From Opeltia flavorubescens (taxonomy: Eukaryota > Ascomycota > Lecanoromycetes > Teloschistales > Teloschistaceae): 64,000 nt of DNA. Both the position numbers and the translations under genes were made by a program. Under the pieces are notes generated by a model. That model was not told the DNA's origin. It ran no database searches and saw only the letters and a list, made by a program, of their open reading frames with translations. This document shows, in pieces, positions 4,129 through 63,154 of this stretch. Where the stretch lies: positions 622,583 to 686,582 of the forward strand of contig KE546971.1 of the NCBI GenBank assembly GCA_000442125.1. The letters are read 5' to 3'. Within the stretch, counting starts at the first letter, position 1. Each line of letters starts with the position of its first letter.

Positions 4129-6490
4129 ATGGGTACCGGCAAAAAAGAGGCCTCCCGAAAGGAGAGGCAGGGAAAGGTCAGCGACGGCATGAACAATGTA
4201 AAAACCAAAGGGGAGAACTTCTACCGGACGGCGAAGAAAGCGAAAACGATGAACATGTTCAAGGAGGGAAAGGCTCAACGAAATGCAGACGGCAAAATTA
4301 CAAAAGCTGCATCATTTCAGTCCCGAGAGCTCCCAAAGGCTCGCGTGGAACCAAACAGAAAATGGTTCGGAAACACTCGAGTTATATCCCAAGATGCCCT
4401 TAGCTCTTTTCGTCAAGCCATGGCGGAGCGAGCTTCGGATCCCTATCAGGTGTTGTTGAAGACGAACAAATTGCCTATGAGCTTGATCAATGATGGGCAC
4501 GGCAAGAATGGGTTGAAGCAGCATCAAGCAAAAGTCGCAGTTGAATCGACGCCATTCGGAGACACCTTTGGTCCAAAAGCGCAGAGGAAGCGAGTCAAGC
4601 TTGATGTCGGCTCGCTGGAAGATTTTGCAGGAGAGACGGTCAAAATGCACGACAAGTACCTGGATCGGCTGGAACAAGCAAAGGAACTCAATGGGACTGC
4701 TGGGCAAGAGGATGCGGCTGGAGAAGCTGTCGCCGAAGAGGTCACACTGACTACGGCACGAGAACCGATATTTTCCAAAGGCCAGTCCAAGAGAATATGG
4801 AACGAATTGTACAAGGTCATTGACTCTTCGGACGTTGTGATACATGTTCTGGACGCACGAGATCCACTAGGCACCAGGTGTCACAGTGTTGAAAAGTATA
4901 TCCGGGAAGAGGCGCCGCACAAGCATTTGATATTTGTTCTGAACAAGTGTGATCTGGTTCCTACGGGTGTCGCTGTAAGTCTACATGAAGCTCACTTGGC
5001 TTCGTACTCCTTTCGGTTCTCAAGTGTCACAAGTATTCCACTGTTAAGTCAAGACTCGCTCCTGCATTTTCATTGCTCTGTCTATGGAGCTGGCTGTCTG
5101 TTACAACTTTGGTAAATTGACCCCTGATCCGCTACTCCTGGCACTTGTGCTTTGAGTGGACTGCTCACCGTCTTGGAGAGCTGATCATAAAGGATCGGGG
5201 AATGTTGCGATTTGAGTTGAACGTCTCCACTACCATTGGTAGACAGATGGAGACTTTCTTAGTATCTGCTTCATACACATAAGAGCGCATACCAGGCATG
5301 GAGTGACCAACGAAGGGAGCCACTGCTAATGATTGAATTTATAGGCGTCCTGGGTCCGCCATCTCAGTAAATCCTACCCAACCCTCGCTTTCCACGCCTC
5401 CATCACAAACTCCTTCGGAAAAGGCTCCCTCATCCAGCTCCTCCGTCAATTTTCCTCTCTTCATTCTGACCGCAAACAAATCTCCGTCGGCTTCATCGGC
5501 TATCCCAACACCGGCAAATCTTCCATCATCAACACGCTTCGAAAAAAGAAAGTCTGCACAGTTGCCCCAATCCCTGGGGAAACCAAAGTATGGCAATATA
5601 TCACGCTCATGAAACGAATCTACTTAATTGATTGTCCCGGGGTTGTGCCGCCTAATGGTAATGACTCGGAAGAAGATATCCTGTTGAGAGGAGTGGTGAG
5701 AGTAGAGAATGTGGAGAATCCGCATGTGTACATCCCAGCTGTCTTGAAGAAGACGAAACCCCAGCACATTGAAAGGACGTACGACGTCAGGGGCTTCAAT
5801 AATGCGACTGAGTTTCTGGAATTATTGGCGAGAAAGAGTGGAAGATTATTGAAGGGTGGGGAGGCGGATGTTGACGGTGTGGCGAAGATGGTGCTGAACG
5901 ATTTTCTCAGAGGGAAGATCCCGTGGTTTACGCCGCCGCCGCTGTTGGAAGGTCAGGAGGAGAAGGAGAGAGGAAAGGGTGTAGAGGGGCGAAAAGGAGC
6001 GTTGGGGGAGATGGGTGTGGTAAGGCAGCCGAAGGAAGATACCATTGAACACAGTGTGGATGATTTTGTCGCTGCCTCGAAGAAGTCTGAGGATAAAACA
6101 GACAACGTTCCGGAAGATCTTCTTGATCCGGTGATTGCGGAACCCACAGCTGCGGAGATCATACCAGAAAACATCCCTAACGACGAAGATGACGACTTTA
6201 TCGGCTTTGGTGATGATAACGATCAGGATGCTGTTGGCGCAGAACAAGCCGGTTCATCATCAGGCTCCGACGGTAGCGAAGGGAACGAAAGTGATATTGA
6301 AGACGGCGGCGCTAGCCTGCTGGAACCTGATGACTTACTGACTGATGATTCTGATGAGGATTCAAATAATGACGAAGAAGAAGAGGCATTGGATGATGCG
6401 GCGATAGATGAAGTGGTAGCGAGCATTCAAGAGCAGCCAGCGGAGGAAGAGACTTCGAGACCTCTGAAGCGGAAGAGAAAAGGTCAATGA
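4129..6490 (+). CDS. NOG2: NOG2, nucleolar/nuclear circularly permuted GTPase
   Basis: Exons 4129-4974 and 5345-6490 give 663 aa. The intron is 370 nt (GTAAGT..TTTATAG, phase 0), far longer than its neighbours. The GTPase motifs come in permuted order: NKCDLVP (G4) ends exon 1, then exon 2 gives GYPNTGKSS (G1/P-loop), PIPGETK (G2) and DCPGVV (G3). The N-terminus [17 protein letters not shown] and the NMFKEGKA segment are NOG2-specific. The C-terminus is an acidic Asp/Glu/Ser tract ending in a basic [11 protein letters not shown]. Known role: pre-60S particle maturation and release checkpoint in the nucleus. In S. cerevisiae the NOG2 intron hosts snoRNA snR191, and this intron appears to do the same (see the ncRNA entry). 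Confidence 0.93.
5025..5280 (+). ncRNA. snR191: Candidate snR191-like H/ACA snoRNA inside the NOG2 intron
   Basis: The intron folds into H/ACA-like units. Hairpin 1: lower stem TTCCA (5036-5040) with TGG(T)AA (5110-5115); pocket strands AGTCA (5047-5051) and GTTAC (5100-5104); upper stem AGAC/GTCT plus GCTCC/GGAGC (5052-5062/5086-5099). The pocket complements the universal LSU rRNA segment GUAAC-UA-UGACU, which places yeast U2258 unpaired. Hairpin 2: pocket strands GAGT (5214-5217) and TAGT (5260-5263), matching ACUA-UG-ACUC (U2260); upper stem GAAcGTCTCCA/TGGAGACtTTC (5219-5229/5248-5258) with inner CTACC/GGTAG. An ACA box lies at 5275-5277, 16 nt below the pocket. An H-box-like AATTGA lies at 5115-5120, with one base off ANANNA. 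An extra helix (5121-5130/5192-5200) sits between them. The exact ends are estimates. Confidence 0.72.
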
Positions 6491-9071: not shown

Positions 9072-10027
9072 TTCGAAAGCTGTGGACGATAAACTTGAGG
9101 AAGAGGAGGAGGAAGTCAAAGCGAAGGAGATACTTTGGAGAAAGATGGAGGAGAAGAGCAGCAGAAGTTGGGGATCTGTAAACAAATAAACAGAAGGAAA
9201 ACAAAGCTATGCCGTACAAAGCTAGACAATCATCACATACATTGAGCTACTCTACATAGACAAGATCGTTCAGCATCAGAGGACGATTATAAACAAGCAA
9301 ATTCATAGGGACGACAGGAAATGTATTGAACTGTGGTTAGTCAATCTTGTTTACTATTTCGACGCTAGTGGGTGTAAACATCGGGTAAATGGACCCCTGG
9401 TCGCACCGCACATTGGGCGCAATGATTGATAGGCTGTCATTTCTTTAATTATTCCTGGAGAAAACTGTCGAGTTTTGCTTTTGTGGTATCTTACTTCTGA
9501 ACCTAGAACTCATGACTACCTAGAGATGTGTCAGTCCGTTCTTTTAGCCTTTAGTGTGAACAGCGACACGGAGCGACCAAGCTATTCCGCAGAATGCCAG
9601 CCATGACCACGTGCGGATTACTTCCGTGCAATGGCCGAATCACATGGCATGCAAAAGATGGATAAGGAATTCGGTTCATCGGTAGGTGAGAAACGATGGT
9701 GCCGGTGTCGCTCAAGGCCTGGATCAGCGAAGGAAAAGGCGTTCTAGTGGAGCAGCTTTACATCATCGCCATGGATCGACCAGATCGCGCTAGACGAGCT
9801 ATTTTCGATATCTGCACGATGAGACATGCTAGCATTTATTTCCAGAAGGAACGTCAAAGCTAGTATTCCAACAAGATAGCCTTTCACCTGCTGATCCAAG
9901 TGACGATGATGCGACACAGGTATGAGAGTTTTCGAGCTTCCTTCTTGAGCTCATAGCGGCGAGCCGGCTACGGGAAGTAGGAGGACTAATCTCTCAAAAG
10001 GCTTTGCATGCCCTTGCGCCACGAAAG
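9072..10027. promoter_or_regulatory. Divergent promoter region
   Basis: Some 0.95 kb between the start codons of the coiled-coil gene and the F-box gene. It probably includes the 5' UTR and 5' UTR intron of the minus-strand gene. One CACGTG E-box core lies near 9608. No open frame looks coding. Confidence 0.4.
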
Positions 10028-11576
10028 ATGGACTTTCTCATTCGCATACTTAGCTGGTGGAAGCCGACCATCGTAGACTCATTTGATACATCCCCTACTC
10101 TACCTCAGATGGACTCTCCGGCTGTTCCTTCATCAGCTCACGCACATTGCACACCTCTGACAGTGCTGCCTGCTGAGATCCTTACTGAAATCTGTTCCTA
10201 CTTGCCCCCCTTATCTCTTGTCAGCTTAAGCCGCGTTTGCAAGCTTTTACGTACTCATGCTTTGATCGACACTCTTTGGTTCAGATTTGTTCGAGAGAAT
10301 GTGCCTCATCAGCCAGAACTACAATATCACCGTGTTGAGAGCTGGAGACAACTTTATATATCCCTTCACCCATATTGGTTTTTAACGAGGAACAGAGTAT
10401 GGTTCTCGGACAAATCTTACACTGGGACCACTATGACCGGCAACTTGATGGTCACTCGCTATGACGCCCAGAGGCAATGCATCGAGGGTTTACGTGTGGT
10501 GGCGAGGCATGGGATACATTCCTTTGAATCTTGGGAATGGAAGCCGGAAGTCATCATTCATACTTTCAACCCTCATGTCGGGTTATATGCCGATGATCCC
10601 ATCGTCAGGATAGACCCGGGAACTTATGCGCAGACAAATTCAGCATCGGATGAGGTCATGATGAGTACAGGATACATGGGTGGGATCAGGTCGATGATTG
10701 CGCTCTGCAAAGCTCTCCCTCCAGATCTTCAAAGTACCGCCATGGATTTATGGCCGCCACAAATCATTCCCGCGAAAGAGCGTGTGCGCAATCAGAGCAC
10801 AAATCTTTTTGCAGGTAAAGGACACCGGCCAAGTACGGCGCTTGATGCAAGTGACAGTACTTTCCGAGTACGCAAATGGGTTGATTCCGGCGGTGCTCGT
10901 TTAGGAGAAGATGTCATGACTTTCAGCACCATGGCGGACGAATATTATACAGCATCAAGGGAGAAGCCATGGCAAGGGATATGGGTTGGAGATTATTCTG
11001 GACACGGTTGCGAGTTTCTGCTGCTGATCCAGCGCGGTGTGGACCGTGCATCAGGATCCCCTAAAGCTGCTTCTGCGTCCCCTCTACGTCATCACCCTCA
11101 CAGAGAGGATTCACGGTTCTCTCGAGATTTACCTGTGGAACCTGGCGAGGACGGCACATGTGCTGGCAGACTCGAAGCAATCAAGTTGACCGGAGACCCA
11201 AATGTGCCGCGAGGCGAGTTCACATGGGTGGCGGAAGACATCGGCCCTGGAGGGCTTTTGCGAATTGCCGATGAAAATATGTTCAAGGGCGCAAGAATCG
11301 TCAGAAGCCTCGGCCATAGTGCAGCACACGGTTTTCGCAACGGTGAATTCTCTTGGGAATGTTCTATGAAGAAAAATGTGCTGATGTTGAAAAGACAAAT
11401 TTACGCCCTCTCAGCTTATCATGGTCAGTCAGAATACTCTGGCTCAATACTGGGAGGTGAGTTCTCTTCAAAATACTCTACGAGCTCTCGTTCTCGTTCT
11501 AACTTGGCCACAGGGATTTGGTCATGTCTCTTTTTATCAACGGGTCGATATCGAAAGTTTTCTGAAAAGCCCCTGA
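10028..11576 (+). CDS. F-box protein, FBXO31-like
   Basis: I predict exons 10028-11342, 11395-11456 and 11514-11576 (introns of 52 and 57 nt), 479 aa. The first ATG in frame is 10028 (MDFLIRILSWW). An F-box lies at about residues 47-90 (LPAEILTEICSYLPPLSLVS). The C-terminal half has the FBXO31-type conserved block: QGIWVGDYSGHGCEFLL, GRLEAIKLTGDPNVPRGE, IGPGGLLRIADE and then the spliced PSQLIMVSQNTLAQYWE and FGHVSFYQRVDIESFLKSP. Those last segments come into frame only if both small introns are removed; reading straight through gives a false tail. Known role of the family: substrate receptor of an SCF ubiquitin ligase. Its target here is unknown. Confidence 0.88.
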
Positions 11577-12557
11577 ACTTATCCGCTCGCATTTCGGAAT
11601 GCATGCTTGAATTTGAGTCTTTTAATCTGTCTTTAAAAATTGTATCTGACTGGGTATCTGACGAGTATGTATGCGATATCTGTGTGTTCTTGTCGGTGTA
11701 CTTTTGCATGGTCCGGAGTAAAGTTAACGTTTGATGAACTCAGCATGGCGACAAATTGGACAAGAGATGAACACATTGGATTTAGCGATCTGCTGTAGAT
11801 CTGGATATTGCATATTGATGGACATGGGATTATGTATGATGAAGCTAAGAATAGAACAGCGCAAAGAGAATTGCAAGAACCTTGGCATCTTCTATCTCTG
11901 CTACGGTTGACTCCTTCGATATGGTCACCCTTTGTTTCCTCATCATGGAATGATTAAATATGAAATGAAGGTCGTTCATTCATACAATGGTGAAACAGCA
12001 TTTAGAAGTCGAGCGCTTGTCGATGGTTTACTTTGAGGTCGTACCTGCATCTCCACTTGCCGCCGGGCCGAAAGGGGTTTGGTAGATGATGTGGTGTTCA
12101 GCCGTCAGCCCAGCATCTTACCACCCACGGCTCAATCAAGTTTCTGCAGTCTCGACATATCTGGAACCACATCCACCACCGCCAATCCGTGTCTATTGCA
12201 TGCTTGTCCTTCTATTCTCCTGTTCATCATGAGGTCACGATATTCCACGGCGTATTTTCCAGACATTTGATATCATTCACGGCTTCTTGCATGCTTACGA
12301 CGCCCTCTGCGGCTTACTGCAGCCCTAATCAACTTCACTCCGACAAGAAGCCCGATCTTGATTATGTTGTAACATCATTTTCTCCTACGAGCATCATACA
12401 ATAGAAGTATCGGAAGGCAATTGATGGTTAAGGCTATTGCAGAGCCAAGTACAGCAAATATATCCACGACTCCCAGCTTTACAATACACGGACTTCTGCG
12501 GAGAAGTCGCCAGCAGGTGTGGTCAGGACCATCTCGCTGCTCAATCCAAGAATTACT
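11577..12557. other. Intergenic region downstream of the F-box gene
   Basis: About 1 kb, holding the F-box 3' UTR and the promoter of the next gene on the same strand. I see no supported gene, RNA or repeat. Confidence 0.45.
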
Positions 12558-20503: not shown

Positions 20504-23500
20504 ATGGAGGTCGACATCGAAGAATCAGACCACCACAATCGTCGAGGATCGGAAGCCTCCCAAACGAGCAACGCCCGTTGGCGGTCCCTTTTCGCCTTCA
20601 CATCTCGATCTCACATCGTGCCACTCTGCCTCGCCCTCATTCTATCGGTGGCATCTGGCGCTGTAGCTCCTGTCCTATCATATTTGCTTGGCAAGGTCTT
20701 CGGCTGCTTCACAAATTACGGAGGGGGCAAGTATGACGGACCAGAACTCATCAGGAGAGTTTCAAAGTATGCAATTGGTCTTACTGGGCTCGGAGCGGGT
20801 AGCGGTTTGCTCCATACAGGCTTCTTTGGGTTCTGGCTGGTTTTCGGGGAATTGCAGGCCAAATCCGCGAGAAACAGTCTTTATGCTGGAATGTTGGAGA
20901 AGGACATGGAGTGGTACGATATGCGCAAAGATGGGATCGACGCACTCATTCAACGACTGCAAACGTACGTAATGGATTGCTCAAACGCTAGCTTCTTGCT
21001 GAAGAACATGATAGGCAAATCCGTGAGCTTCAAATGGCCACTTCTCAGCCGCTTGGATTCGCTCTTCAAAGCATAGTCACTGCATTTGCAGCTCTAGGTC
21101 TTGCTCTGTACACTGCCTGGGATCTGACTCTGATCACCACTGCTACGATACCGATTTCCGCGATCGTTCTGGGCAGAATATCTTCCAAAATGCAGCCTAG
21201 CATTGACAGTCAAGCAGAGGCATTGAGTGCCGCCTCTAAATTTGCGATCAATGCGCTCCAAGCTATCGATACGGTCAAATGCTTCAACGGACAGGATTTC
21301 GAGATATGGCAGTATGCGAAGGCAATCAGAAGAGCCGCCACTAAGTATTTGAGTCAAGCAATGGCCAACTCGCTACAGATCGGGTTCACTAGATTCGTGA
21401 CCCAGTCCATGTTCGTACAAGGGTTCTGGTATGGGAGCCATCTAGTCATTCAAGGCAAGAAAGATCCAGGACAGGTATTGACTGCCTTTTGGTCCTGTTT
21501 GATGGCGCTCCAAGCGGTCGAGCAAATACTACCGCAGATGATCGTGCTAGAGAAAGGGCGAGCCGCTGGCGCGACGCTCGCGGCCATCCTGACGCAGATG
21601 GGAAGAAGACGACAAGCGGTCATGACAGGGAATTTGAAACCTAGATTCTGTGAAGGAGACATTGAAGTGCGAAACGTGAGTCAAGATTTTATCGATGAAA
21701 CTCATGTACTAAGTTCTCTAGGTATCGTTTCGCTACCCTTCTCGGCCGGATCAGCTCGTCTTGAAGAATGCCAGCTTCTTCTTCCCTGCTGGAGAGACTT
21801 CTTTCGTGATTGGTAAAAGTGGGTCGGGTAAAAGTACTCTCGGTAACCTTCTTATGCGTTTCTATGAGCCATCGACTGGTGAAATGCTCATCGATGGTAA
21901 CGCCGTAACGACACTCGACATCGGCTGGCTTCGAAACAACATTACACTGGTACAGCAGCGAAATTTTCTGTTCAATGAAACGATTTTCAAGAATATCGCC
22001 TTCGGTCGAAGGGACTGGGATCAAGTCAACCGAGAGCAGGTCAAACGCTCAATTGATACGGCTCATCTGCAAGACACTATCAATGACCTACCCAAAGGCC
22101 TAGACACTGTTGTAGGCCCCAGTGGTAGTGCGATGAGCGGCGGTCAGAGGCAACGCGTGGCCATAGCGAGGGCACGGCTCAGGGATACGCCAATCCTCAT
22201 TCTGGACGAAGCAACCAGTGCCTTGGACCACATCAGTAAAGACATGGTCATGGATGCAATACGGGAATGGAGACGTGGGAAAACTACGATAATTATTACT
22301 CATGATCTCTCGCAGATCGAAGACCATGAATACGCCTACATCCTTGACCAAGGATTGGTCGTGCAAGAGGGGTATAGATACGCCTTAGAGAAGAACACTG
22401 CCGGGCCGCTGGCTGTACCACGGAGGCCATCGATCAGCTTTCCACAGAGTAAGCGGCTACCGAGGCTACCAGAGGAGAGTCGGAAGCGAAGTATCATCAC
22501 GACGAACTTGCTGTCACATGGCAGCATTGCCTCGAATAATTCCGTTGATTCCTTGGATATTCAATACCATCCGCGCCCGCAGTCGGTTTTCATTCCCGCA
22601 ATATTCAGTCCTGGAACCGAGCTTTCCAGGAACAGACAGTCTCATTTCGAGCCATTCGTATCGCCGGCTGCAGCCGGAGCATTCACCATGCGCCGGATGT
22701 CTGGTGTTCCCAGTATCTTTGGTCGTTCTCCAAATGCCTCAGCACAGGCATCCGATCGCTCAGATCCAATGCTGGATTGGTTGCCCCCTCCCCCTCAAGG
22801 ACAAAAGGTGGGAGACCTGTCATTGGTCAATGAACTTCATCATCCGAATTTTATCGCGAGGAGGAGAGCAATTGAGAGACGTGCCATTCGCTCTGTACCA
22901 AGCCAATCTAGCATCATCCCGCTCAAGGCTATCAAAGCTTCTACAGATGATCGCCCGGAAACTGCCGGCCGACCAACAGAAGCTGTCAGGAAACGGTCCA
23001 TTACACCAATCAAGAAGATTCTGCTTACNGTTTGGCCAACGTTGACCTGGAGACACCGACCATTGCTGCTAGGCGGATTTTTGTTCGCTGGCATCCACGC
23101 AGCGGCCACACCACTATTCTCGTGGGTGTTCTCAAAGCTGTTAGCGACCTTCTTCATGCCAGAAAATCGCTCACGAGAGGCGCTTAAATGGTCGCTCTCC
23201 GTGCTCGGGGTTGGTGGGGGGGATGCTGTTGCGGTTTATTTCATGCACTACCTTCTTGAAGCTTGCGGGCAAGCCTGGGTCGACAGTCTGAGGATAGAAG
23301 CAATAAAGCGAATCATTGACCAGCCGCGCACTTGGTTTGACAGAGACAAGAACGGTGTCTCCAAGCTTACAGAATGTCTCGATCGGAATCCGGAGGAGAT
23401 GAGGAACCTCTTAGGCCGATTCGCTGGCTTTGTTTTCGTTGTGGTCGTGATGCTCCTGATTGCGCTTACATGGAGCCTCGTAGTTTGCTGGAAGCTAACG

Positions 23501-24760
23501 CTCGTCGGCCTTGCCTCTGCTCCTTTCATCTATATTGTCACAAGATCCTACCAGGCAGTCAGCGAGAAGTGGGAGAGCAAAAGCAATGAAGCCGGTACTA
23601 CTGCTGCTTCCGTATTCACCGAGACGTTCGGAACCATTGGAACCGTGCGCGCCCTTACTCTCGAAGCATACCTACATGGAAAATATCTCAAATCAACCGA
23701 GCTTACTTTCAGGGTTGGCCTTCGACGATCTATTTATTCAGGCATCTTTTATGGCCTTTCTGATTCCGGCATCGTTTTTGCTACAGCCCTCATCTTTTAC
23801 TATGGCGCGGTTCTCGCAGCTTCGAAAGCGTTCAGTACCCAAAACATCATTCAGGTATTCAGCATGCTCTTATTCAGTATCTCGAATGCAAATGCCATCC
23901 TTTCTTTTATTCCTCAAATCAACTCGTCCTGCACCACGGCAACTCAATTGCTACGCCTGGCGAACCTTCCTCATAAATCGTCTCACGAGCATACTGGCCA
24001 TGTGAGGCTCCCGGCTCTGGAAACAATTACCTTTTGCGATGTCTATTTCATATATCCATCAAGACCGTTGGGATCTGTGCTTAATGGCCTCGACCTGACC
24101 TTGGCACCTTACACCAGCATCGCTCTTGTTGGCGCCTCAGGATCAGGAAAGTCAACGATTGCTTCTCTCATACTTGGTCTCTATCCACCAACTTCTGGCA
24201 CGCTCACTATCGGCTCGTTTCCAGTGTCTGAACTGCATTTACCCTCCCTACGTTCGCTCATCGCTGTCGTTCCCCAGACACCTCAAATATTCGCTACAAC
24301 GGTTGCCGGTAATATTGCTTATGCTCTGCCAGAGCGCTCAACCCTTGCTTCCAGAGAGGCCATTGAACATGCCGCTAAAGTTGTTGGCATCCATGACTTC
24401 ATTACCAGTCTACCTCAGGGCTATCAAACACTCATCGGAGAAGGTGGTACAGGCCTCTCAGGCGGTCAAGCGCAACGTATCGCAATAGCAAGAGCGGTGG
24501 CAAGGCAGCCTATGTTGCTGATTTTAGATGAGGCGACCAGCGCACTGGATTTGGAAAATGCAAGAGGCATCCGTGATCTTGTAAAGCGATTGACCAGTGA
24601 GCGGGTTGGAGTGCTGATGATTACACATGATCGAGAGATGATGGCTGCATGCGAGGATGTGGTTGTCTTGAAGGGTGGTCGGGTTTCAGAAAGAGGAAAT
24701 TTCGACGACTTGCGACAGAAACACGGTGGGGAGTTGAGGAGATTGCTGGGGGAAGCGTAA
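20504..24760 (+). CDS. STE6: STE6-like full ABC transporter, a-factor pheromone exporter type
   Basis: Exons 20504-20964, 21015-21675 and 21722-24760; introns of 50 and 46 nt; 1386 aa. The architecture is TMD-NBD-TMD-NBD. NBD1: Walker A GKSGSGKST (about residues 405-413), signature MSGGQRQR (about 512), Walker B ILILDEAT (about 532). NBD2 near the C-terminus: GASGSGKST, LSGGQAQR and LLILDEATSALD. A 200-residue Ser/Arg-rich linker separates the halves. The first NBD begins exactly after intron 2 (VSFRYPSRPDQLVLKNAS). The YMAL-like region MATSQPLGFALQSIVTAF follows intron 1. Known role: export of the farnesylated a-type mating pheromone at the plasma membrane. One N at 23029 falls in a codon where every base gives Thr. 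Confidence 0.88.
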
Positions 24761-25483
24761 TTTGATGACTCCTGCTCGACTCCACACGCCAGCTACGAGC
24801 TTGAATGAGGCCATCATTCAAATCACACGAGTCCACCATGATTAGAGNTGGACGATGCTCTGCTAGCGGTCATAAGAAGTCGTTTGCGTCCTGACTTTTC
24901 TGTTCGTCCTTGGTCCACCAGCAAAACTCCCGACAATTTGTACAGAAGTAATGATTTTGGCAAGTGAAGTGGTGGGACTGGATAGATCGTTTCATCACCG
25001 CGAAGACACTAGTATCGGTACATAGCATGTTTATGTAGGTCATCATCGCATTGGTATTCCTAGCTCTCTAATCTTACATTGTACCACTTTTGGCTCGTTT
25101 CATCTGCCACACAAAATTTTCAGAATCTCCCCTGGCAGACATGCCATATGTGGGGACAACATATTAGCGTGGAGTTACTGCTGTCAAGATCTTGTTATGC
25201 GGATTGCAAGGTCCTGCATCATCTTCCGCTGCCGTCATTGATGAGCATGCCGAAATTCATTGGAGAGCATATATCATCTTCGTGGAGATTCCTTACCAAT
25301 CCCGTCATCTTTCCCGCACGCGATTGGCGCCATTAGGTTTGCTTTTCCGAAGACGGCCGATTAAGTCATGGTGAGTAAATATGATGACTGGGCTAGACCT
25401 CAATGCCTAATACAGGTGCCTCATTCTTTCTGCGGACGTTACGACTTGCAGCAACAGGAGAACGATGGTACAAGTGAACCATC
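24761..25483. other. Intergenic region after STE6
   Basis: 0.72 kb with an ambiguous base at 24848. Short open frames (25079-25336) show no motif. It is likely the STE6 3' UTR plus the promoter of the secreted protein. Confidence 0.45.
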
Positions 25484-56712: not shown

Positions 56713-57434
56713 AGTGTTCACTGTCGATGAATCTCTGCAGAGGATTCTGAATGAGAAGACTCTTCCATTTTGAAAATGACGCATGGACGACTAGGAGTTG
56801 GAAAGTACAGGTCACGGCGAGTATGCAATCATGAGGTCAAAAGGGGCATTTTACTAAGGTGCTGGTGCACTTCTCCTCAGAAGCTGCAGAGGCACAATGG
56901 TTGAATAACACGGTACTCTAGAATATCTAGATTTGCTTATTACTATTTTACTCTTGAGGGTAGACTGAGTTTTAAATATCATCACGTGAGATCTCAGCTT
57001 ACTCACTTTACCCAATTTCAACCATCGTATAATTGGGGGAGAATGAAGTCGTTATGGATACTACTTTCTGAAGGCTCACTGACATTTGTCGCAGCGTATC
57101 GTTCATCAAGGGTGTCATCTACGTAGCGTCGATTTCTCAGGTTTTTGTATCCGTCGTCTTCATTGACCTTGGTAGTTGATACTGTTCGTAGTCTTCTGGG
57201 TCACTGATGTAGCGGTTCGGATGAAGTTCTAAGGCATAGCAGATCAACTGAGGCAGTGTGTCCTGCCTGAAAGCGCTTGGTGATCCGAGTCATCGTCCAG
57301 TGACGAATGTCTCGATGGTCTATTCAGCCCTGTCAAGATATCACGGTGCTTCTTCGTGACTAGTCCCTGTGCCTTCTTTCTCTTTAGGCAAGGTGCAAGA
57401 GTGCCTTATCGGATTTCAGGAAGTTGTTCGGAAA
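56713..57434. other. Convergent 3' UTR region
   Basis: 0.72 kb between MAP1 and the MFS gene. AT-rich first half, no supported gene. Confidence 0.5.
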
Positions 57435-59249
57435 TCATTTGCCAAGTCGTCTCTCACGGACAAAGTCTGGTTCGTGCGTAAGTCAATCAAAATACTCCAG
57501 GATAGGAAATCCGACTTACATGCGCTCAGCATGGCGAAGAAAACCATACCCAGCATCAAACAGAATCCATCTCTTGTCGCATGGCTGTAGCATTCTCGCA
57601 CGATTTGCCTTACCTCGGGCGGAAGGGTCTTGATGTAATCAAGACTTTGTCGTACTCTCTGAACAACTTCCTCCGCATCATCACCATTGTTGAGTTGGTC
57701 CTCTAGCTGGTTGCGCAAGGATTGCTGGACCACAGTTGCAGATAACGCCAGGCCAACGACGGATCCCAAAGTTCGGAAAAGATACGAGCAAGCGGTTGCC
57801 ACAGCTTGATCAGCTTGTGCGGCGTTGGAGATGAGACCGATCAGTGAAGACGTTACCCCTATACCGTTGCCAAATCCTGTAAGGACTAAGCCGACTGCTA
57901 TTCCATAGTAGGTGTTGGCTACAAAGTCCGAAAATAGCATCACAACAAGGACACCACCGAATAGCATCGTGTAGGCAATGACAGTCAACCAGTAATACTT
58001 CCCGGTCTTCTGCATCAATAGGCCTCCAAATAAAGATCCGGAAACACCAGAGATTATGGTGGGTAAAAGCCTTAAACTAGCTTGTGTTGCCGTGTATCCG
58101 TTGACAGCTTGGAAGAATAAAGGCAAATAGAATATCAGAGACAGATATCCGGCGAAGCTGAAGAAGTTGCAGAAATAGCAGGCTACTAGGCTCCTGTCCC
58201 AAATAATACGGCTCGGTGCAAAAGGTTCAGCTGCAAACCGCTGTTCCACAAGAGCGAAGAGGATAAATAGTACGAACGAGACTGAGAGAGAAGCGATGGT
58301 GATTGGGATTGACCAACTGACATTGCTTCCACGGTCGAGTCCAAGGAGCATTGTGAACACGGCCGAGACAAGCACAAAAGCTCCTATGAAGTCCACTCGC
58401 GCAAGTTTCTTCTTCCATCCCGCACTCTCTCTTCTTGGTAGACGCAGAACGAAAGTGACACTTAGGAAAGCCAAAGCACACATAGGGGCTTGTGCAAGGA
58501 AAGCCCACCGCCAGGAGAAGAGATCTGCTAGTATTCCGCCAAGAGGAGCACCACAGCCGGCCCCTGCGGCGTAGATGATGTTGATTATCCCCTGCCATGT
58601 GCCTCGTTCTCGCAATGGTACAATGTCACTCATCAAAATCGAGACGACGGTTGTCATGCCTCCGCCGCCAATTCCAGCAAAGGCTCTCGCCGCGATTAGC
58701 TCGTTCATGTCCCTAGCAAGGCCACAGAACAGACAGCCAATTCCGAAAATGGCATATCCGAACAACAAAGCAGATTTCCGTCCAAAGATGTCGGAAAGTT
58801 TACCATATAGAGGCTGGAAGGACGTAAGGGTGAGGAAGTAGCTTGGCAAGGTTAGTATAAGCAGTACAAGTTGAGGGTAATGAGATCCTGGACGTTTCTC
58901 ACGCAGTCGAGACCCAAGAAGTCTTATTCAATGCCTTTAAGTCGCTTCCAATCTTGCCATACATGGTCACAATCAAGGTCTGGTCGGCAGCTGCGAGGAA
59001 GATCCCAATTGCAATTGCAGGCAGGATGTACTTTAGCCTTGCCTTGACTTCGGGCATACCCTGATATTCGGTCACATGATCTTGATTCTCTTCATCATCG
59101 CCGCGCTTGACTGCTCCATTCACCTGCTCATCGGCACCGCTGCCGTTTGGAAGAGCTCCATCCGGTACAGTCACGGGCTTCGAAAGGACATCAGAGGGTT
59201 TTCGAAGCAAAGGCGATGTCTCGGTGGCCTCACTATGACCTTTCGGCAT
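57435..59249 (-). CDS. MFS transporter, 14-TM DHA2/vacuolar amino-acid type
   Basis: Exons (minus strand) 59249-58903, 58841-57520 and 57466-57435; introns of 61 and 53 nt; 566 aa. The short last exon gives YFVRERRLGK and a stop. Reading through the intron instead yields a false tail. The protein has 14 hydrophobic segments, MFS motif A (GKLSDIFGRK) after helix 2 and DIVPLRERGTWQGI (antiporter loop). The cytosolic N-terminus starts MPKGHSEATETSPLLRK, in which ETSPLL is an acidic dileucine (ExxxLL) sorting signal, often directing proteins to the vacuole. It resembles Fnx1/Vba-type vacuolar basic amino-acid transporters more than plasma-membrane drug pumps, but the substrate is inferred. Confidence 0.85.
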
Positions 59250-59596: not shown

Positions 59597-60707
59597 ATGG
59601 GTTGGTTCTCAGGATGGCTTGGGAACGATAGTTCTTCCTCAAAATCGAGCAATGATCCTCTCCGCGACCTCGATCCCAGTCTCCGTGAATTCCTCGAAAA
59701 GGAGTCGCCAGTCAAATATGAAACATCCCCTGCTCCTCCTCTACCGCCTCCCCAACCAGAACCCTCTTCGGCACTTCAATCCTCCTCTGATCCCTCAGAA
59801 ACAACCTCTTCTTCCGTACCACCACAATCCCTCTTCCAAGATGGCCGCTACGCCCACCTTTGGAAAACTTACAAACCCCGCCAAGAGGTTGAAAATGCCT
59901 ACAAATCCGACCAAGAAAAGCTCATGGACCTTCTCGAAGGCTACCAATCGCGCAAAGCCCGGATTGGGAAAGCTGCGCTGGAGAACTGCGCTGAGGAGCA
60001 AGCGGCTATGAGTGACTGCTACCGTAATGGGAGCTGGCAAAGCAAAATGACAATGTGCAGGGCGGAGAACAAGGCGTTCGAGAGGTGCTATACCATGCAA
60101 GCGGTATACATTCCCGATCCCTCTTCTTTTCTATGGGGCTAGGAACTTGGATACTGACTGACTACCATAGCGTTTCCTCAAAGCCCTCGGCTATCTTTCC
60201 GCCTACGACCGCCCTCCCGAAATCGACGAGCAAATCCAGATGCACGCCGATACTCTGTACCACCGCATGCTCGCGCAAGAAGCCGCCGTCGCCGAAGCAA
60301 AAGCATCCAACGCCCCAGTCCCGTCCTTCAACCCTCTGATTTCCTCTGCTACCCCCCCTGAGAACTCGGGCCCCACGACATCAACCGGTCAACCCGTTTC
60401 CGCCTCTGCGGCCGCAACACTTGAGTCTGCATGCCCAATGTCGTATGAAGAAAGCATGGAGGCACATCTAAAAAGACTGAAACCGAATATCCGGCAAAAA
60501 CTGGAAGAGGATTGGGAGAAGCAAAAATTGACTACGGAAGAAAAGATGTTGGAAGCGAAGGCGCATGCGATGGAAGCGGAAGCCGGAGTTGGGGTGGCGA
60601 ATCAAGTCGGGCAGATGATGCAGGATGCACAAAAGGGGAGGGAACAAAGGAGAAAAGAAGGAACGGCAACGTTGGGGGATCTGGTCAGTGGATGGTTAGG
60701 ACGATGA
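59597..60707 (+). CDS. Twin-CX9C (CHCH-like) protein, unknown function
   Basis: Exons 59597-60103 and 60171-60707 (67-nt intron GTATAC..CCATAG, phase 0), 347 aa. After a Ser/Pro-rich N-terminal 85 residues comes FQDGRYAHLWKTYKP and then two Cys pairs with exact CX9C spacing: C-AEEQAAMSD-C and C-RAENKAFER-C, with helices between. This is the pattern of CHCH proteins imported into the mitochondrial intermembrane space by Mia40. The intron then joins YTMQA to RFLKALGYLSAYDR, and a long helical, Ala/Glu-rich C-terminus follows. It resembles DUF3128/Emi1-type fungal proteins. The exact role is unknown. It is much longer than the classic small CX9C proteins. Confidence 0.8.
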
Positions 60708-61001: not shown

Positions 61002-63154
61002 TTACTGATGCTGCTGGCCTGGTCTGGGAAAAACAGGGATTGTTGGAAGTTGCTCCAAACCGCCCACGGAGCCCTGGTTGGACTGCCAGCCTTGGCCAGT
61101 CTGCTGACTGACGAAAGTGCTCTGACGGAAGGGATTCGTGCTTCCTGTGGAGCTAGGCAGGATTAGTGGAGGCGTGGAGATCTGGGACGTAGGGGGGGAT
61201 ATGTTGCGAGCGAATGGGTTGGTGCCTGTACGGTGAGGTTGCAAGGCTTGTGAAGCTTGTTGCGGAAAGAATTGTGATGACTGGGTGGGAAAGGCCTGCG
61301 GAGTTTGCTGAGGAGGAGCGGAGGTGAAAGGCGAGCTCTGGATTTGTCCAGCAGCAACTGGAGGAGTGCCTCGAGTAAAGGGGTTCGTGCTTTGTTGGCT
61401 GATTGGCGACAACACCGAGGGTGGACTTGTGAAAGAAGAAGTGGATGCTCCCGTCGGCATTGACGTTTGGCGGAAAGGGTTGGTAGATTGCTGGGACTGC
61501 GGACTGAAGTTGAATGATTGTTGCCCTGTATTGAAATGTTGCTGCTGCTGCGGGAATGCTTCCGCAGAATTTGTTTGGGGTAGAGAAGCGAATGCGGTTA
61601 ATTGCTGGCCGAATGGCTGTTGAGAGTAGCCACCAAAACTAGTGCCTGTGAAGTCTGATTGTCCGCCGAGCTGGACCTGGTTATTGTTTGCAGTATATGG
61701 ATTGCTCATGGAATTAATTTGCTGCTGTTGAGGCTGTGTACCTGGTATGAAAGGGGCCTGTGTAGCGGAAGAAAACGTCGAGGATTGCGGCTGTTGGAAG
61801 TACTGAGACCCGTTCTGGACAGTAGGCATTTGCTGAGTCTGGAATGCCATAGGCTGTTGTTTCTGTTCAATGGAGTCAAAGAAGTCAATCAGATCGGGCG
61901 CTGGGCCTTTGGCTTCGAAAGGTTTCGCAGTTGGTGCAGTGGCAGTAACTTTGGAGCCCGCAGAATCCTTGTTTGGCGCATTTTTGGTCGCATCAGGAGT
62001 AGATTTCGTAGGAATACTAGCGGTAGGTTTCTTCCCCTTTTTGGCCTCTTGTTGAGCCAAGTACTGCCTCCTATTGATTTCAAAATCCGCGTCGTTTAGG
62101 TATTCCTCTAACGAACTGGTCAGACTTGTTGGTGCGTGTTTCAGCTTCGGTATCTCTAGTCTTGTAGCATTTTCGTACTGGCGTGCAACACTGAGGAATT
62201 GCACCACTTGGTCCGTTTGCTTGCTGAAGGTTTTGTATATTTTGAATGCCCGTTCAGCGTCGAATTTGGACATTTCAAAGTAATGCTCTACTCGGTTCAG
62301 CGCAAATACTGCGAACAGCTTTAAAATCTAGTCCTCACCCAAGACATTGATAGTGCCTTCATTCATGATACCAAATAATATCAATAAATCCATAGTCAAT
62401 AAACGGAATGCAGTTAAGGTAATCTCATTCTCCGGATCATTGCTAAGGAGCTGAACAGAAAATGGTTAGTCAGAGCAAAATAAGATAGGAGTTCGATTTA
62501 GTACTCACGTCACACTTGAGCAGGGCGTTGATCTGGGTCTGGATACTTTCCGTTTCTCGAAGGAGACCCTTGTCTACCGTCTGCCTTTTAAGCCGTCCTT
62601 GACCTTCACGGACCCAATCGATTTTTGTATCCCGGAAAGCCTTCGCGCGGGCCAGTAGGTAGGAGTAGTAATGGCGGATGTTGGTTCCTTGAACTTGGAC
62701 TAAGTAGAAACAAGTATTAGCGAGGAGTACCCAATTACTATCTCATAACCAGACAGGCTGTTGCTTTTCCCCTTGCCCAACTCATGTATCACATCAACTG
62801 CATCCTCCTCTGCAAGGTTTTTACGAACATCGCCCTAGTAGTACAGACGGGAGCCCTTGACTACGTACCGTCGGAGAAGTTGCTAATCGCCAATTTGGAC
62901 GGGGAATCAGCCAGATGCTTTAGTGTAACCCGAGGTTCTCCTTCTCTTATCATAAGATGAACGATGATCAGAGCCTTGAAGACTATAGTCCATGTCGAAT
63001 CTCTTAATCGGTTCTGTAGAGCTCTGAAGATCTCGGCGACACCAGCTTCCCCCGCATGAGTTGCAACAAGTATGTGCTCAACATATTTTGCTTTAGGTGC
63101 AGCAAGTTTGATCTTTGTTCCACCTTTTACCGATTTCTCAAAGGAGCCTGACAT
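61002..63154 (-). CDS. AP180/CALM-type clathrin adaptor (ANTH domain)
   Basis: Exons (minus strand) 63154-62869, 62699-62509, 62450-62339 and 62287-61002; 624 aa. A possible extra 60-nt in-frame exon at 62809-62750 would give 644 aa. ANTH domain, residues 1-270: SFEKSVKGGTKIKLAAPKAK (PIP2-binding Lys cluster), YVEHILVATHAGEAGVAEIF, NIRHYYSYLLARAKAF, VDKGLLRETESIQTQI and KHAPTSLTSSLEEYLND. The C-terminal half is Gln/Ser/Pro-rich with four NPF motifs (ligands of EH-domain proteins) and ends GGLEQLPTIPVFPRPGQ. Known role: membrane-bending clathrin adaptor in endocytosis (yeast Yap1801/Yap1802). Confidence 0.92.

Follow-up and report, generated by a model that had tools for sequence, protein, structure and literature searches.

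The NOG2 locus and its long intron

The window, the whole 64-kb stretch of DNA analyzed here, carries a two-exon NOG2 gene on its forward strand (Table 1). The host was identified by its Pfam domains, NGP1NT and MMR_HSR1, together with matches to PDB Nog2 chains; exon 2 aligns to these from its first residue, which corresponds to residue 271 in yeast Nog2. The initial annotation had placed a 370-nt NOG2 intron at 4975-5344, and this proved to be a clean phase-0 intron with a GTAAGT donor, a CTAAT element at 5326 and a TATAG acceptor. Its excision leaves a single open frame of 663 aa, with no further intron needed to keep that frame open. The proteins closest to this NOG2, among the best 120 of 6697, came from lichen fungi, Gyalolechia foremost: one protein (P0001) matched at 88% over the full length, and a shorter one (P0031) at 96% over 69%. 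We take the Gyalolechia matches to represent Teloschistaceae.

Nine other reading frames of the window were also searched for domains. Four of them (10004-11734, 21761-24760, 57416-58849 and 61002-62273) gave matches, with the domains F-box/Cyclin_D1_bind, ABC transporter, MFS transporter and ANTH, and the remaining five had no domain match at E 1e-5.

Table 1. Features of the NOG2 locus and of the RNA predicted in its intron (25S positions in yeast numbering; L001, the related fungal locus described below)
Feature	Position	Strand	Remarks
NOG2 exon 1	4129..4974	+	NGP1NT domain (Pfam); ends ...VPTGVA
NOG2 intron, snoRNA host	4975..5344	+	phase-0 spliceosomal, 370 nt
Predicted mature snR191/SNORA74-type H/ACA snoRNA	5036..5280	+	SNORA74 match 5037-5279, nhmmer 5036-5277, fold
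5' hairpin	5038..5112	+	lower stem CCA/TGG and GTT/AAC
5' pocket, left arm AGUCA	5047..5051	+	pairs with 25S 2260-2264
5' pocket, right arm GUUAC	5100..5104	+	pairs with 25S 2253-2257; target U2258
H box position, AAAUUG	5114..5119	+	14 nt from 5' pocket
Middle (third) domain	5122..5200	+	predicted three-way junction; closing stem CCCTGATCC/GGATCGGGG
Middle-domain hairpin GCTCACCGTCTTGGAGAG	5163..5180	+	18/18 identical in L001
3' hairpin	5201..5274	+	SNORA74 match, single-sequence and consensus folds
3' pocket, left arm GAGU	5214..5217	+	pairs with 25S 2262-2265
3' pocket, right arm UAGU	5260..5263	+	pairs with 25S 2256-2259; target U2260
ACA box	5275..5277	+	15 nt from 3' pocket; conserved in L001 alignment
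NOG2 exon 2	5345..6490	+	GTPase domain MMR_HSR1 (Pfam); starts ASWVRH...

Layout and guide pockets of the predicted intronic RNA

Rfam searches at gathering score gave no match in the window, and a whole-window search to E 10 listed nothing at the NOG2 intron. When positions 4900-5450 were searched to E 10, SNORA74 alone was listed, matching at full length over 5037-5279 with 17.4 bits (gathering score, 71) and E 0.034, a value scaled to 551 bases and 4227 families. Because this match was unlisted in the whole-window search, it would not prove the case by itself. Elsewhere in the window, the search to E 10 returned four matches with E from 0.72 to 9. A snoU13-labelled match at 60424-60512 (E 9) was taken as chance.

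The elements singled out by the initial annotation were all found where it had placed them: the pocket arms, the ACA at 5275 and the upper stems of both hairpins (GCTCC 5058-5062 with GGAGC 5086-5090, and GTCTCCA 5223-5229 with TGGAGAC 5248-5254). Its two-hairpin layout held for both hairpins but overlooked the large middle domain at 5122-5200. The length of about 255 nt that it had claimed comes down to about 245 nt for a 3' end 3 nt past the ACA; we inferred the ends of the RNA from the lower stem and from ACA plus 3 nt.

H/ACA RNAs keep 14-16 nt between a pocket and its H or ACA box, and the spacing lies in this range both in the window (14 nt to the H box, 15 nt to ACA) and in L001 (14 nt and 14 nt). 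The H box is AAAUUG in the window and AGAUUG in L001, against AGAUUA in the consensus of the Rfam snR191 family RF01263; its last base, G, departs from ANANNA. Both fungi thus have two of the three consensus A residues at the right spacing, and an A follows the final G.

The minimum-energy fold of 5036-5278 (243 nt) consists of the 5' hairpin, the middle domain and the 3' hairpin. Two hairpins with pocket loops, a hinge and a tail were given by this fold and by the two-sequence consensus; the H/ACA shape was not given by the fold of the whole window intron, nor by L001 folded alone. Within the 5' hairpin, the single-sequence and consensus folds draw different pairings for the apical stem. Fold z-scores were modest, at -1.86 for the 243-nt segment, -1.93 for the whole intron and -1.40 for L001, and shuffled sequences folded at least as well in 9/200, 4/100 and 18/200 cases, respectively. 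Accordingly, single-sequence folding was rejected as proof.

We then compared the pockets with a helix 69 (H69) segment of large-subunit rRNA. The segment is from the 28S rRNA of another eukaryote, given as the R2 target oligonucleotide in PMC12180492, and was numbered by the yeast modification list in PMC8307265, which assigns Psi2258 and Psi2260 to snR191. The stretch facing the pockets reads GUAACUAUGACUC. As targets, we scored the 17 U residues that lie at least 8 nt from the ends of the segment. In both the window and L001, the best target of the 5' pocket was 2258, with 5+5 Watson-Crick pairs (runner-up, 1+4), and that of the 3' pocket was 2260, with 4+4 (runner-up, 3+1). The pockets therefore fit the rRNA around yeast U2258 and U2260, as the initial annotation had it, at least on the H69 segment of another eukaryote.

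The full pattern of two pockets, spacing and ACA occurred once on the two strands of the 64-kb window and in none of 20,000 dinucleotide-shuffled versions of the intron. Neither pocket is compelling singly, because each recurs alone in the shuffles: 54 of the 20,000 contain pocket 1 and 205 contain pocket 2. At 25364 of the window, the 5' pocket pattern was also found without a second pocket, and we took this occurrence as chance.

Conservation of the RNA in a second fungus

A scan of contigs from prokaryote genomes yielded 86 stretches fitting a search pattern, one of which was a relative (L001), and no related locus was found in viral contigs in three scans. L001 is NYXK01000235.1, 66134-74217, on a 107-kb contig in a metagenome-assembled genome titled Deltaproteobacteria. 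A fungal NOG2 with introns in a bacterial genome record is apparently eukaryotic contamination. Among the 120 proteins picked for closeness to the window, the best matches to L001 NOG2 came from Venustampulla, Lachnellula, Cudoniella and Hyaloscypha, all of which we take to be leotiomycetes, so L001 looks like a leotiomycete locus.

The L001 intron interrupts NOG2 at the same codon boundary as that of the window (GVA|A). It matched Rfam snR191 over positions 1-273 of 273, with 43.0 bits and E 1.6e-8; at gathering score, which is 46 for this family, Rfam gave no match in L001 either. Annotation by gathering scores would overlook the RNA, since it is missed in both of the filamentous fungi examined. 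SNORA74 and snR191 both belong to Rfam clan CL00043, and the pocket letters GUCA/GUUAC and GAGU/UAGU are present in both consensus lines. Homology of the window RNA to the snR191 side of the clan runs through L001 and its alignment with the window. A covariance match of the snR191 type, for which the initial annotation had called, was obtained: weakly and at full length with SNORA74 in the window and with snR191 itself in L001, but not with snR191 among the matches listed for the window.

Between the window and L001, 167 of 241 aligned bases of the snoRNA part were identical, against 11/29 and 15/34 in the intron flanks, where the alignment has many gaps. The local alignment score was 142, whereas none of 500 shuffles scored above 37. 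An nhmmer search of the window with the snoRNA segment of L001, to E 10, listed a single place, 5036-5277, with E 8.3e-25. Fourfold sites of the host gene agree at just 65 of 185 (in one of three open L001 splice forms), so the snoRNA sequence appears to be under strong selection. Of the seven identical runs of at least 8 bases, four are the pocket arms. The 5' hairpin contributes CTGCATTT, the ACA box region TTCATACA, and the middle domain a run of 18 bases.

RNAalifold of the two sequences gave 51 pairs. All 102 of the 102 cells pair, compared with 37-46% and 0-1 double changes for slid partners, and 3 of 500 column shuffles reached the observed covariation values. Compensatory changes, another expectation from the initial annotation, were found in this alignment of NOG2 introns, with 9 of the 51 consensus pairs changed on both sides. 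The covariation comes from two sequences, and because the structure was derived from those same two, the pair count favours it.

These data leave little room for chance. That a long intron should hold fortuitous hairpins and rRNA complementarity would find backing in the single pockets that recur in the shuffles and at 25364, yet both pockets and boxes together appeared in no shuffle, and the homologous intron of a distant relative matches Rfam snR191. Contradicted already by the L001 match, the intron alignment and the pattern shuffles, an origin by chance has a practically negligible probability.

Three of the papers drawn on below, PMC8476143, PMC4202332 and PMC5033589, are presumably Lim et al. 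2021, Hooks et al. 2014 and Donovan et al. 2016, respectively. Passages of the latter two describe snR191 as lost or moved in some yeasts (PMC4202332, PMC5033589), so the intron copy might be a decayed snR191 whose working gene lies elsewhere. snR191 is free-standing in Candida parapsilosis and C. orthopsilosis (PMC5033589), a copy lies outside NOG2 in Kazachstania africana (PMC4202332), and the weak Rfam score in the window would fit decay. However, the pockets, spacing and ACA are intact; the 51 consensus pairs all form in both species, from which the structure was derived; and conservation lies far above that of host synonymous sites, none of which would be expected of a decaying copy. We regard a decayed copy as very improbable.

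The middle domain is itself conserved. Its 18-base stretch at 5163-5180 ranks second in length among the identical runs of the window-L001 alignment and lies outside the guide pockets, and the closing stem has compensatory changes in three of its six consensus pairs. The hairpin GCUCACCGUCUUGGAGAG is thus the same in a lichen-type fungus and a leotiomycete-like one, whereas the stem that closes the domain has changed by compensation. The RF01263 structure line has a comparable middle domain; the CCG-UCU-UGG tip of the hairpin aligns with cgUUUug of the RF01263 consensus, which it matches as CGUYUUG. The longest complementarity of the 18-mer to the H69 segment was 7 nt, G-U pairs included, and was judged unconvincing. 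A tentative idea, which we consider rather doubtful, is that the middle domain is a working module that binds a protein or pre-rRNA partner and couples H69 modification to Nog2-dependent 60S assembly.

This invariant stretch, for which no target is known, could also be read as a sign that the conserved structure serves mainly a cis function, in the splicing of NOG2 or by forming a stable intron, instead of guiding pseudouridylation. In yeast, the linear NOG2 intron accumulates under stress, but removal of the intron left NOG2 mRNA and protein unchanged, according to passages of PMC10667330. Four of the seven identical runs are pocket arms fitting two adjacent known sites. A cis role could coexist with guiding, but it leaves the pockets unexplained, and as the main function it is a slimmer prospect still than decay.

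Taken together, the weak full-length SNORA74 match, the snR191 match in L001, the homology of the two introns and the fit of the pockets to H69 bear out the snR191-like guide that the initial annotation had proposed in the NOG2 intron. We put at about 95% the probability that this intron holds an snR191-type H/ACA RNA, likely released, that is a predicted guide for the H69 equivalents of U2258 and U2260. By sequence comparison it is the orthologue of yeast snR191 and vertebrate SNORA74; production of the snoRNA and pseudouridylation of H69 are predictions. NOG2 would be transcribed and the intron spliced out, as the splice sites suggest; H/ACA proteins on its hairpins would then trim the debranched intron to a snoRNA of about 245 nt. 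Judging from pairing potential, the 5' pocket AGUCA/GUUAC could hold GUAAC-U(2258)A-UGACU, and the 3' pocket GAGU/UAGU could hold ACUA-U(2260)G-ACUC. Cbf5, the pseudouridine synthase of H/ACA guides, would then convert the equivalents of U2258 and U2260, as yeast snR191 leads one to expect.

Comparison with known snR191-type RNAs

The linkage of snR191 to NOG2 across fungi is already published, and the locus described here is an ordinary new example of it. According to passages of PMC8476143, the position of the NOG2 intron is retained in 72% of fungal species, and in eight species poor in introns the NOG2 intron codes for an H/ACA snoRNA, which is snR191 in S. cerevisiae; stem-loop 2 and the antisense element were of low confidence in one of the eight. 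The same source considers guide and host to be possibly coordinated. An intronic 251-nt snR191 from a Trichophyton rubrum cDNA library is in print as well (PMC3890542). The initial annotation had presented host-gene linkage kept from yeasts to a filamentous fungus; such linkage is present here, but its novelty did not stand (PMC8476143). That the intron sits at the same position as in yeast is taken from PMC8476143; the alignment made here compares the window with L001.

What the locus contributes is a likely lichen-forming, Teloschistaceae-like ascomycete among the fungi that keep this guide inside NOG2. The guide serves the two most conserved pseudouridines of the large subunit, and its place inside NOG2 fits the published idea that an assembly factor and a guide are co-expressed. 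Among the matches listed from the open-access literature, none reports an snR191-type RNA in a lichen fungus, and neither snR191 nor Nog2 occurs in the matched passages of a paper on 17 fungal structural RNAs (PMC8216456). A possible connection with rDNA introns that lie close to H69 in lichens (passages of PMC8527467) was considered and dropped.

Human SNORA74 targets 28S 3741 and 3743, and the host genes of SNORA74 differ from NOG2. The RNA resembles this vertebrate family (SNORA74/U19, RF00090) in its full-length covariance match, albeit one of only those 17.4 bits, in having the same pocket cores and in having one more hairpin ahead of the 3' hairpin. T. rubrum Trnc_4006 (KC353316, labelled RF01263 snR191) is, like the window RNA, intronic, from a filamentous ascomycete and of similar length (251-nt cDNA). 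Its predicted targets include 25S Psi2245 and, unlike here, 18S-935 and 25S-1239, and its host gene goes unnamed in the passages of PMC3890542. Psi2245 would correspond to about position 2258 of yeast if positions in T. rubrum are numbered 13-14 lower, an offset suggested by the snR13 site, which is Am2267 there and Am2280/2281 in yeast.

From S. cerevisiae snR191 (RF01263), the RNA differs in its length, inferred here as about 245 nt against 274 nt in yeast (PMC12389098), in its AAAUUG H box where the consensus has AGAUUA, and in stems so diverged that SNORA74 alone of the clan is listed for the window. With it, the RNA has in common the host gene, the intronic site, the pocket letters, the pair of targets, the three-domain layout and the ACA tail.
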